From a virus, in IMG/VR virus record IMGVR_UViG_3300045125_000037, positions 1-29,330 of that record: a DNA stretch of 29,330 nucleotides; one strand, 5' to 3'. The notes under the pieces are model-generated. The model was not told the origin of the DNA. It did not search any database and saw only the letters and a list, made by a program, of their open reading frames with translations. The position numbers and the translations under genes were made by a program. The first letter of the stretch is position 1; each line of letters starts with the position of its first letter. Shown here one piece after another: positions 16,043 to 20,184 of this stretch.

Positions 16043-16666
16043 AATAAAGAGCAGTTAATTAGAGTGCTGTACCCCACCGTACCAAGCAGGCCCCTGTGTG
16101 ATTACCTTGGCATTACAATGTCACAGCTCTACAACCGAGTATTTCAAATGGGGGTAAAGAAAAACCCACGCATCAAGTACCTGCAGAATCGAGCCTTGAG
16201 ACTCAATGGAGGTATGAAGAGCAGATGGCAACGTGGTTATGAGCCACATAACAAGGGTAAGCAGATGAGCAGTGAGCTCTATGCAGAAGGTAAGACCTAC
16301 CATGTACAAGCGCTAAGCAACAAGCCATTCAATACACGGGAGCCTAATGCAACAAGCATCCGATGGGATAAGACAGGAAGGCCCTACTCCTACACTAAGG
16401 TAAAGGATAGCCTTTGGGTGCTCACTCACAGGTTAGTGTGGGAGTCCATCTACGGACCAATACCCAAGGACCACGTGGTTAGATTCAAGGATGGCAACAA
16501 CCTCAACATACAGATTGATAACCTTGAGTGCATCCCTAAGACTGAGAATGCAATACGAAACAGCATCCACCGCTTCCTAGGTGAAGTGCAGACAGTAATA
16601 AGATTAAAGAGTAAATTAAATAAACAAATAAAACAAAAACAAAATGGCAAGAAACGGAATGAATGA
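16040..16666 (+). CDS. HNH endonuclease (208 aa)
   Basis: ATG at 16040 gives MNKEQLIRVLYPTVPSRPLC, and the frame is unbroken to TGA at 16664-16666. The first third has a helix-turn-helix-like segment (LCDYLGITMSQLYNRVFQMG), then HNKGKQMSSELYAEG. The nuclease core is THRLVWESIYGPIPKDHVV, RFKDGNNLN and IQIDNLECI: the His of HRLVWE, the Asp/Asn of KDGN and the Asn of IDNLE correspond to the HNH_3-type site. Such enzymes may be homing endonucleases or part of DNA metabolism. There is no intron or disrupted host gene around it, so a free-standing role is likely. The basic C-terminal tail overlaps the next start by 23 bases. Confidence 0.83.
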   Translation: MNKEQLIRVLYPTVPSRPLCDYLGITMSQLYNRVFQMGVKKNPRIKYLQNRALRLNGGMKSRWQRGYEPHNKGKQMSSELYAEGKTYHVQALSNKPFNTREPNATSIRWDKTGRPYSYTKVKDSLWVLTHRLVWESIYGPIPKDHVVRFKDGNNLNIQIDNLECIPKTENAIRNSIHRFLGEVQTVIRLKSKLNKQIKQKQNGKKRNE

Positions 16667-16893
16667 TCTAAGAGACCACCTATTTGCAGGACTCGAAAGA
16701 TTAAACGATGATGAGCTCACACCTGAGCAGACTCGCTACTGAGGTAGAAAAAGCACAGGCAATTAGTAACCTGTCAAATTCTGTAATAAACAGTGCTAAG
16801 GCTGAGGTTGATTTTATGAAGGCTACCGGAATGATAGCAACCACATCCAACCTGTTCAAAGGAGTGAATGACCCTAAAAGACTTGAGCAATGA
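16644..16893 (+). CDS. Small conserved protein following the HNH gene (about 83 aa)
   Basis: ATG at 16644 gives MARNGMNDLRDHLFAGLERL and NDDELTPEQ. After a shift near 16735 comes ATEVEKAQAISNLSNSVINS, then AKAEVDFMKATGM, ending at TGA 16891-16893. I recall proteins of this pattern (NGMNDLRDHLF...AIS..A..II.SAK.E..F.K.TG) encoded beside HNH genes in Bacteroidota phages; their function is not known. It is mostly helical. The stop overlaps the next ATG as ATGA. Confidence 0.62.
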
Positions 16894-17091: not shown

Positions 17092-17551
17092 TTGACAGAA
17101 GTATATCAACTGTCCAAGGTCTACAACTAGGACATTGTGAAGATCATTGACGAGTTCAACCTTCGCATGAAGATGCAGGAAGCAGGAATATGTGTACAAG
17201 CGTTACTGGTTAGCTCAGTACCTGTGGTACTGCAGAAGGCACATGACCGTGCAACTTGCAGGTCACTACCTCAACATCAACCACAGCACAGTGAGCTATG
17301 GCTTAAAGATGCATGACTTGTGGTGGAGGGTGAGTGATAACAGATACCTATGTCACATCTATCCACTTCCTGACCTGCTGAGCGTGACAACCCATGACAA
17401 CCCCGTGACAACTTACACGGTAAAATTCAATGAGGTTGACACGGAGAATGTGAGAGTAACTATCAACGGAAATTTCCCTCCAAAGTTATTAACCAATTTT
17501 GAAAAACCCTTGACAGGTAAGCAATTAAGCGACATCTTGCACATGTCATAG
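17082..17551 (+). CDS. DNA-binding protein with a DnaA domain-4-like helix-turn-helix; replication initiator candidate
   Basis: ATG at 17082 gives MLLIDRSISTVQGLQL. After shifts near 17125 and 17190 the protein reads DIVKIIDEFNLRMKMQEAG and VYKRYWLAQYLWYCRRHMTV, then QLAGHYLNINHSTVSYGLKM. The H-S-T-V followed by a helix is the signature by which the C-terminal domain of DnaA reads DNA. The rest (PLPDLLSVTTHDNPV and onward) has no known fold. The DNA encoding SVTTHDNPVTT contains three CGTGACAAC-type repeats at 10- to 11-base spacing, and more copies follow the gene. This recalls initiators that bind iterons in or near their own gene. A terminator follows 19 bases after the stop. Confidence 0.65.
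17383..17412. repeat. Three phased CGTGACAAC iterons inside the HTH gene
   Basis: Copies lie at 17383-17391 (CGTGACAAC), 17393-17401 (CATGACAAC) and 17404-17412 (CGTGACAAC). The spacing of 10 and 11 bases puts them on one face of the helix, as in typical iteron arrays. They are within coding sequence but in different codon registers, so protein repetition does not explain them. Confidence 0.75.
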
Positions 17552-17570
17552 GATAAGGGTTCAATACGTT

Positions 17571-17594
17571 AGGGGCTTCGGCTCCTTTCTTTTT
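17571..17594 (+). terminator. Rho-independent-type terminator with UUCG tetraloop
   Basis: AGGGGC (17571-17576) pairs with GCTCCT (17581-17586), with one G-T wobble, around the very stable TTCG loop. TTCTTTTT follows at 17587-17594. It ends the early transcript that starts at 15181. Confidence 0.88.
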
Positions 17595-17601
17595 GCCCAT
17601 C

Positions 17602-17791
17602 CGTGACGACGTGACAACCCAAATGCATATGAGCCATATATTTAATACAGTGATATTCACCCCCAAAAAGTTGATTTTGAGTCGTCACGTTGTCACGGAA
17701 ACACAAGAAACCCAATACTGACGGGGCTTATAGGCGTGACAACTACCCCTTTTGGGGTTGTCACGGGTTGTCACTGTCACGAGTTGTCACG
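17602..17791. repeat. Intergenic cluster of CGTGACAAC/GTTGTCACG repeats; origin or operator candidate
   Basis: Copies are at 17602 (CGTGACGAC), 17610 (CGTGACAAC) and 17735 (CGTGACAAC) in the forward sense. In the reverse sense they are at 17681 (GTCGTCACG), 17689 (GTTGTCACG), 17757 (GTTGTCACG), 17767 (GTTGTCACT) and 17783 (GTTGTCACG), with a partial copy at 17775. Together with the three copies inside the gene, this makes eleven within 410 bases. The 17552-17822 interval holds no gene. An AT-rich stretch (17792-17850) follows directly, as expected of a duplex-unwinding element. Confidence 0.78.
17735..17765. repeat. Long hairpin formed by two opposing repeats
   Basis: CGTGACAAC (17735-17743) and GTTGTCACG (17757-17765) are perfect reverse complements. 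The inner CCCC (17746-17749) and GGGG (17754-17757) can extend the stem with a small bulge and TTTT loop. There is no T-run after it, so it is more likely a cruciform or protein site than a terminator. Confidence 0.65.
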
Positions 17792-17816
17792 CATTAGAAT
17801 TAATTTAATATATTTG
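17784..17816 (+). promoter_or_regulatory. Possible promoter for the primase-helicase operon
   Basis: TATATTTG at 17809-17816 is a perfect -7 element. The nearest TTG (17784-17786) lies 22 bases upstream, longer than the usual 19. It falls inside the last GTTGTCACG repeat, so a protein bound there would affect polymerase. The leader to the ATG at 17823 would be nearly absent. Uncorrected indels may have altered the spacing. Confidence 0.4.
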
Positions 17817-17822
17817 CACCCT

Positions 17823-20184
17823 ATGTATAACCCTTATATATCAATTTTCAAGAGTCTCTACAATAGTAAAGAGACACCATTCTCTATTAAGGCAATAGAG
17901 GTAGCATAACAGAATACAGGTAGGCACACCTGATTTAATTACTAAGATAAAGCCATCCGCAAGGGTAACAATGAGCTCAAGAACAGCCTATATGGCTATC
18001 ATGTTCAATGGTACCTTCAGTGAACGGAAGGATGATGGACTTGTTGAGCACTCTAGGTCTTTGTATCCTGGACTTTGACAAGTACCCCGATGCTGATACC
18101 ATAGGCGAAGCAGAACGGAAGAGGCTCATTGAAGATAAGTATACCTATATGCTTTTCACCTCACCCAGTGGTAAGGGCCTCAAGGTAGTGATTAGGATAC
18201 CTCAATGTGACAAGGTTGAACACCGGAGGAGATTCAGCCACTATGAGCAGTACATCAACAGTGAGTACTTTGACACCTCCAACAAGAATGTGAGCAGGGT
18301 GTGCTTTGAGTCCTACTGACCCCGAGGCCTATCTCAATGAATTTGCAACGAGTTTACACAGGTATCATTGAGGATACAGGGTACCACCGTAGTGAATACA
18401 CCCCCAAGGTGGTGATAACCAACGAGAACAGGATCATTGAGAAGATACTCAAGTTCAACCATGGTGAATTTAAGGAAGGAAATAGGGCTAACTGGATCTA
18501 CAAGGTAGCCTGCTGCCTATGTGAGTACTCTATTCCCCTTAGTACTGCGGAAAATACACTGCTGCAATTCACGCAGGAAGGCTTTGGAGCTACCGAGATA
18601 ACCAATACCATTAGGAATGCATACAAGCAGGCTCAGTTTGGCCTTAAAGTGTTTGAGGATGTAGAAGCCATCCAAGGGATAAAGGCTAAATTAAAGGAGG
18701 GAATTGCTCCCGAGGATATCAGTAAGCAGTTAAGTGTATCTAAGGATGATATTAAGGCCATCCAAAAGGAGGAGGACATCTTTTGGGAGGTAAAAAAAGA
18801 CACTGGTAATATCATACCCAACAAGTATGCGGCATGGTTGCACAAGCAAGGCTTTGCTAAGTACTACCCTGAGCGTTCAAATAACCCCCTTTCGTGTACA
18901 TAACAGAGAATAAGGTCCAAGAGAGCTCAGTTGAGAAGATAAAGGACCATGTACTAACCTATCTAATGGAGCAGGGAGCTGATGGATGTGTACAACCACT
19001 GTGCTAAGAGCTCACAACTATTCACACCTGTGGCACCTCAATATGCTTGACTCCATTGATATGCGTATCCTGCAGGACTCGCAAGACCGAGTGCTACCTC
19101 CCATTCACCAATGGGGTGGCAGTGATCACTAAGAACAAGGTCAAGCTCATCAGCTACATTGATATTGATGGATACATCTGGCGATGACCAAATAATACCA
19201 AGGGAGTTCAAGGTTGAGAATACCTACGAGAATAACTTTCAGGATTTCGTCAACAAGATAGCAGGCACAGGACCCTAACCGAATCAAGTCAATGAGGACC
19301 ACCATAGGGTACCTGCTCCATACCTACAAGGACAAGGCAGACCAAAAGGCAGTGATTATTCAATCGATGAAGAGATAGACGATAACCCTAATGGAGGGGA
19401 GTGGTAAGTCACTAATGCTCACAGCCCTTGGCCACATCCGAAAGATTGTGAAGATAGACGGTAAGATGTTCAACCCAGGTAAGAATGATTTTGTCTATTC
19501 AAGGGTGAACCCCTGATACACAGGTATTGGCCTTTGATGATGTTGAAAGCACTTCAATCTTTGAGCAGTTATTCTCACTCATCACGGAGGGCATCCCTGT
19601 CAACAGGAAGAACAAGGATGAGTACTACATCCCATACGAGCGAAGCCCTAAGATAGTCATCACCACCAACTACGTGATTAGCAGGAGCAGGTGGAAGCCA
19701 CGACAGGTGAGGAGGCATGAGGTTGAGTTCAACCAATACTTCAATGCTAACCATAGCCCCATTGATGAGTATGGTGTGCAAGCTATTCGACCAATGGACC
19801 ACATGAGGAGTGGAGCTACTTTGACAATTACATGATTGGCAATATCAAGTACTACTTTGAGCATGGCCTATTCCAAACCACAGGTATCAACAGCGACATC
19901 AAGAAGCTCATCCAAAACACCTGCAAGGAGTTCTATGACTTTGTTGAGGACACACCACTGATAGCAGATGGTAAACACTTGCACCGGTACAAGGGGCTCA
20001 TGATGCAATTCCAAGAGGAAACCAACAGCTTCAAGGACCTCAAGCCTCAAGTATTCTCCCGATGGATTGACTGCTATGCAACCCACATGAAATATAAATT
20101 AACTAAACACCGTAACCATGAAGGCGCCATTTTTATCTTACCCCTACTGCTCCTAACAGGATGCAGGACAGCACAGAAGTGTGA
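17823..20184 (+). CDS. VirE-N/BT4734-type primase fused to a D5-like helicase (about 780 aa)
   Basis: This protein should prime and unwind phage DNA. ATG at 17823 gives MYNPYISIFKSLYNSKETPF. The VirE-N domain shows MFNGTFSERKDDGLVEHS, then CILDFDKYPDAD, LFTSPSGKGLKVVIRIPQC and SRVCFESYDPEAYLN. A middle region (18420-18900) precedes a superfamily 3-like ATPase: Walker A is GGSGKSLMLTALG (about 19395), Walker B is VLAFDDVE (19526), and a sensor strand is KIVITTNYVIS (19650). The end, WIDCYATHMKYKLTKHRNHE, then FYLTPTAPNRMQDSTEV, stops at 20182-20184. Shifts are frequent, for example near 17910, 18045, 18318, 18895, 18985, 19080, 19185, 19270, 19370, 19510, 19690 and 19780. Confidence 0.83.

Follow-up and report, generated by a model that had tools for sequence, protein, structure and literature searches.

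A dense cluster of short repeats lies between the gene for a small helix-turn-helix (HTH) protein and the primase-helicase gene of a small freshwater phage, and the question it raises is whether this array is where replication of the phage begins, a control site for the primase gene, or something else. We consider it likely, judging from sequence comparison, that the array is an iteron-type replication origin, bound by the neighbouring DnaA domain IV protein and placed next to the primase-helicase; the main rival is a role as operator only.

The genome record and its relatives

The sequence analyzed, hereafter the window, is the whole of the IMG/VR virus record IMGVR_UViG_3300045125_000037 (29,330 bases). 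Its two ends adjoin each other in the relatives G002 and G004, and terminal repeats are present in several relatives, so that the window probably represents a full phage genome of about 29 kb in circularly permuted form. Its genes are broken by many frameshifts, which are sequencing errors, and they were read through relatives with clean sequence. Related primase loci number in the hundreds, with 557 confirmed stretches in IMG/VR, and one relative is a contig inside a pond metagenome bin. An INPHARED nucleotide search returned no matches, tblastn recovered remote isolates only, and Rfam and tRNA scans of the window gave no matches. The Bacteroidota -7 promoter element has the consensus TAnnTTTG, and a promoter of this type, together with DUF3127 and a BT4734-like domain, suggests that the host belongs to the Bacteroidota.

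Layout of the locus

The neighbourhood of the array is a replication and recombination module, because an Erf-like annealing protein, an exonuclease and a DUF3127 single-strand-binding protein are encoded nearby in relatives. The primase-helicase itself combines a BT4734-like N-terminal domain, a PriCT-1-like part and a DUF5906/P-loop helicase. The features of the interval are, in order:

17082 (ATG) to 17551 (stop), plus strand: candidate initiator gene, a stand-alone DnaA domain IV (helix-turn-helix), frameshifted in this assembly
17383 to 17412, plus strand: three direct motif copies in the 3' end of the initiator gene, at 17383, 17393 (one mismatch) and 17404
17435 to 17443, minus strand: reverse copy CGTGTCAAC with one mismatch, inside the initiator gene; exact in several relatives
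17571 to 17594, plus strand: hairpin resembling an intrinsic terminator at the end of the initiator gene; conserved among close relatives and also found in sister phages
17602 to 17618, plus strand: direct pair F1F2, 8 bp apart
17627 to 17656: AT-rich gap between the pairs, with CATATATTTAATAC here and CTCTTATATA in sister phages
17681 to 17697, minus strand: inverted pair R1R2, mirroring F1F2
17735 to 17743, plus strand: single site F3, inverted with respect to R2
17757 to 17791, minus strand: reverse series by the primase promoter, at 17757, 17767, 17775 (damaged) and 17783
17793 to 17852: AT-rich segment of low stability that runs across the primase promoter and start; candidate unwinding element
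17809 to 17816, plus strand: TATATTTG, matching the -7 element TAnnTTTG, conserved in relatives
17823 to 20184, plus strand: primase-helicase gene, frameshifted here, its end inferred by homology; about 775 aa in relatives

The conserved TATATTTG ends 6 nt upstream of the primase ATG, so that the primase message may well be leaderless or nearly so. At the other side of the locus, a small conserved gene lies between an HNH endonuclease and the HTH gene (L010:3495-3752; about 16640-16890 in the window) and matches PHROG 2044, "RNA polymerase beta subunit" (E 6e-21), a name that is doubtful for a product of 85 aa. The slot just upstream of the HTH gene is variable, and in many sister phages (L153, L161, L162, L179, L180, L181, L184, and L191) DNA methyltransferase genes or other small genes replace the usual gene of 81-85 aa.

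A repeat array confined to one place

The preliminary description of this DNA had reported at least eleven motif copies, with at most one mismatch, within 410 bases; our count is 12, at 17383-17791, seven of them exact copies of CGTGACAAC/GTTGTCACG (17383+, 17404+, 17610+, 17689-, 17735+, 17757-, and 17783-) and five with one mismatch (17393, 17435, 17602, 17681, and 17767). Position 17775 reads TGTCACG and is probably a thirteenth copy damaged by a sequencing error, because the corresponding site in relatives is a full GTTGTCACG and the window is rich in frameshifts. The unit is 9 bp long and asymmetric; four of the 12 copies fall inside the 3' end of the upstream gene and the remainder are intergenic. 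Across 18 arrays, neighbours on the same strand are spaced by 8 (32 cases), 9 (17), 10 (17) or 11 bp (48), distances of about one helical turn.

All seven exact copies in the 29.3-kb record lie within the array. Allowing one mismatch, the whole record holds 16 matches against 4.7 expected, a number reached by none of 100 shuffles. The motif had also been described as different from the DnaA box, and this holds: the window contains 31 matches to TTATnCACA at one mismatch or less, where 42.5 were expected, with no cluster at the array. Real DnaA boxes, and with them an oriC-like origin built on such boxes, were rejected because sites of this kind are not enriched.

Conservation in close relatives

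All 19 close relatives with upstream sequence carry the array, each with 9-12 exact copies whose spacing hardly differs. There the reverse series consists of a 20-bp unit, GTTGTCACGGAGTTGTCACG, present twice and in L008 three times, and it is by this unit that copy number changes among close relatives. Two of the checks proposed at the outset, motif retention in relatives and motif counts across genomes, came out in favour of a locus-specific array, since no comparable density occurs elsewhere in any of 13 whole records. In the viral records of the clade the exact motif is confined to the array, which is also the sole notable repeat cluster in seven genomes; outside the array, two isolated matches turned up in the single bacterial bin that was searched, an 800-kb bin with one relative among its contigs. 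A much larger phage contig of 91.6 kb (L027, record G014) begins inside a primase gene 88% identical to that of the clade; the region upstream of the primase lies outside the contig, and the remainder contains neither the HTH gene nor the motif.

The upstream protein

The candidate initiator gene is intact in relatives, where it encodes 154-161 aa (e.g., L010:3718-4203), adjoins the array in nearly all loci and is not classified by PHROGs. Its product carries the DHSTV signature of DnaA domain IV. The Pfam family PF08299 (Bac_DnaA_C) was matched by 23 of 24 family members, with a best E of 5e-16, and members of the window's clade taken singly gave weak matches below the cut-off (E 0.006-0.014). 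Compared with the PDB, the family profile found the DnaA DNA-binding domain in its DNA complexes (3pvp, E 6e-6; 1j1v, E 1e-5), and an AF2 model (pLDDT 77) matched 3pvp with a Foldseek probability of 0.96 and a target TM-score of 0.64, at Foldseek E-values that are not significant. The DnaA AAA+ domain (PF00308) was found in none of the six records of these phages searched, while the positive control was found in 13 of 14 genomes. Given the family, PDB-profile and structure matches and the lack of an AAA+ domain in six genomes, the upstream protein is a stand-alone DnaA domain IV, and the earlier label "DnaA-domain-4-like" is borne out by the Pfam and PDB profile matches. The AAA+ domain that the protein lacks is the DNA-opening part of DnaA, and this counts against reading the array as an origin.

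A constant layout with a changing motif

Sister phages, whose primases are about 55-65% identical, have the same interval with a different motif, ATCGTCAT/C in most of them, GCGTC(A/G)C in L185-L188 and TTGTAAC in L191. Sixteen representatives align over F1F2, the AT-rich gap with CTCTTATATA, R1R2, a conserved block, F3, the reverse copies, TATATTTG and the ATG. Most sister phages have the motif at far higher density in the 440 bp that precede the primase than in the rest of the locus; for L146 the strict word gives no significant excess, as its sites read ATCGTCC/ATCGTCT. At four aligned sites of the 16 representatives GTC is invariant and positions 1-3 vary, and agreement between sites at the variable positions is higher within a genome than across genomes, 0.81 vs. 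0.67 in shuffles, the maximum among 2000 shuffles being 0.72, in a test that ignores phylogeny. Such concerted change of the sites within a genome is what would be expected for one cognate binder. Loss of the motif in relatives had been named as an outcome that would speak against an origin; close relatives keep the array, and distant ones keep the architecture with a changed motif.

Further out, distant HTH homologues in L057-L060 and in Flavobacterium phage tooticki have no such array nearby, which counts against the origin reading, and in the complete genome MW202828, whose primase is 38.5% identical, repeat search and k-mer clustering found no array; a DnaA-IV-like gene lies there about 2.7 kb upstream of the primase. 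In L188 the array block holds four occurrences of the word GCGTC, and the other 8.4 kb none; the phage may be avoiding the box, or a restriction site, there. Sister phages also contain an isolated, conserved copy of ATCGTCAC 5-7 kb downstream of the primase start, which was rejected as a second site since it represents the codons of the C-terminal tail ESSDDLPF of the single-strand-binding protein.

The identity of the binder is where a first alternative arises: a host factor or another phage protein might occupy the array, as a partition, packaging or silencing site, in place of the neighbouring HTH protein. Motif class and HTH sequence show no one-to-one mapping, nor do motif and recognition helix, as exemplified by L188, whose HTH protein is nearest to that of the window's clade and yet goes with the GCGTC motif, and by L181, whose helix differs and yet goes with the common ATCGTC motif. 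The change of motif between phage lineages under a constant layout nevertheless argues for a phage-encoded binder, the HTH gene adjoins the array in nearly all loci, no partition genes were identified at the locus and about 8 kb separate it from the terminase, so that we consider this explanation improbable.

A second alternative starts from R2 and F3, which in most phages form inverted repeats with a perfect or near-perfect match and which covary: they could be the arms of a stem-loop, belonging to a single-strand origin or an mRNA leader, with the repeats as by-products. Both sides have changed in 9 of 25 sequences at one pair and in two sequences each at two others, and the covariation score was reached by none of 500 shuffles. 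The consensus fold, however, has only a 7-bp outer stem, whose covariation is explained by two inverted copies of one binding site, whereas the inner stem is unsupported (pairing in 70% of cells, with three of its pairs mostly open) and the other motif copies are incompatible with a stem-loop. The R2-F3 hairpin was rejected on account of the unsupported inner stem, and a structured element in general appears very improbable.

Origin or operator

The array occurs once in the genome and is conserved while its motif turns over; from this, the homology to DnaA domain IV and the gene order, we infer a mechanism of binding, opening, helicase loading and autoregulation. The DnaA domain IV protein encoded by the preceding gene would bind the 9-bp sites in both orientations; its binding would bend the DNA and open the AT-rich stretch either in the gap that separates the pairs or next to the primase start, and the primase-helicase, encoded directly downstream, would load at the opened DNA, where replication would start. 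The same binding would probably also tune expression of the primase, since the last copies overlap its promoter region.

The AT-rich stretch that had been reported to follow the array is present: few 60-mers of the window genome are less stable than the one that begins at 17793, and in six of seven genomes the AT-rich 60-mer adjacent to the array ranks within the six of lowest stability. Such low stability is not specific to unwinding, as the stretch doubles as promoter. Cumulative GC skew, also proposed as a check, did not mark the array site, with no extreme at the array in any of the seven genomes and no consistent minimum.

The promoter brings in the operator-only explanation, according to which the HTH protein acts as repressor or activator on the array for the primase operon, and perhaps for its own gene, while replication starts elsewhere. 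The last reverse copies closely precede the conserved TATATTTG and the primase ATG, the final site of sister phages is about 4 bp from the TATATTTG element, and the terminator-like hairpin lies between the two genes and separates them, so that the primase needs a promoter of its own. Yet about 12 sites over 400 bp are far more than an operator needs, the upstream gene contains four of them and two pairs are 100-200 bp from the promoter, exact copies occur at no other promoter, and the protein family is the DNA-binding domain of the initiator itself. On balance we find a purely regulatory role unlikely. The preliminary description had left the choice between an origin and a master operator: the former is supported by a locus-specific motif, by an array kept in relatives and by an HTH protein that is DnaA domain IV, and the latter is the less likely of the two because the copies are found at one locus only, not at other promoters.

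Comparison with known replication systems

In phage lambda the initiator sites lie inside the initiator gene, a feature only partly shared here (four of 12 sites). Repeated initiator sites beside an A+T-rich stretch are characteristic of lambda and plasmid origins (PMC5043065), and the array resembles the lambda origin with its O protein in having multiple initiator sites by such a stretch and a helicase-side gene downstream (PMC5043065). Unlike the 19-bp inverted repeats of lambda, which are bound by dimers, the unit here is short and asymmetric, occurs in mixed orientation and goes with a candidate initiator that is a DnaA domain IV and not an O-type protein; long palindromic iterons of the lambda O type are absent. 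Plasmid Rep initiators are winged-helix proteins, which sets them apart from the candidate initiator, and plasmid iterons are mostly direct, longer repeats. The iteron plasmids P1, F, RK2, and R6K nonetheless share with the array short repeats near one helical turn apart, an adjacent cognate gene and an AT-rich segment (PMC5043065).

The origin oriC of E. coli likewise has 9-bp sites in both orientations, with opposed groups beside the unwinding element (PMC5742627), and its DnaA has the same domain IV fold; here, by contrast, the motif is not TTATnCACA, and there is neither an AAA+ domain nor an ATP switch. The recognition helix of DnaA reads the 3' half TnCACA of the box and Arg399 the 5' TTA (PMC5742627), and GTTGTCACG can be placed in register with the DnaA box so that CAC is shared at positions 6-8. 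By analogy, the contact of the DHSTV helix may have been kept and that of the basic loop may have drifted, which matches the constant GTC and the varying positions 1-3. In the PLE satellites, origin iterons and the DNA-binding domain of the initiator RepA also differ between variants as a replicon module (PMC8263062), with specificity tested by swaps (PMC8263062); PLE differs in its RepA_N-type domain and three semi-palindromic iterons of roughly 30 bp. By these comparisons the unusual part of the putative system is the type of initiator; otherwise the proposed origin would work like those of lambda and the iteron plasmids. In a targeted literature search, with subscription papers mostly outside its reach, no phage origin served by a lone DnaA domain IV was found to have been described.

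Significance

We give an even chance to the broader proposal that a widespread group of small phages, probably of Bacteroidota, initiates replication with a stripped-down DnaA, reduced to domain IV, on re-specified 9-bp boxes and hands the opening of the DNA to its own primase-helicase, the box having changed in concert while the architecture was kept. If true, the locus would be a compact, testable replicon based on a lone DnaA DNA-binding domain: a binder of 160 aa, some 400 bp of DNA and a single primase-helicase. It would also offer a natural series of changed boxes, with a dozen sites changing together, in which the evolution of origin-binding specificity could be followed, and it would suggest a function for a gene that PHROGs leaves unclassified, in phages whose related primase loci run to several hundred.
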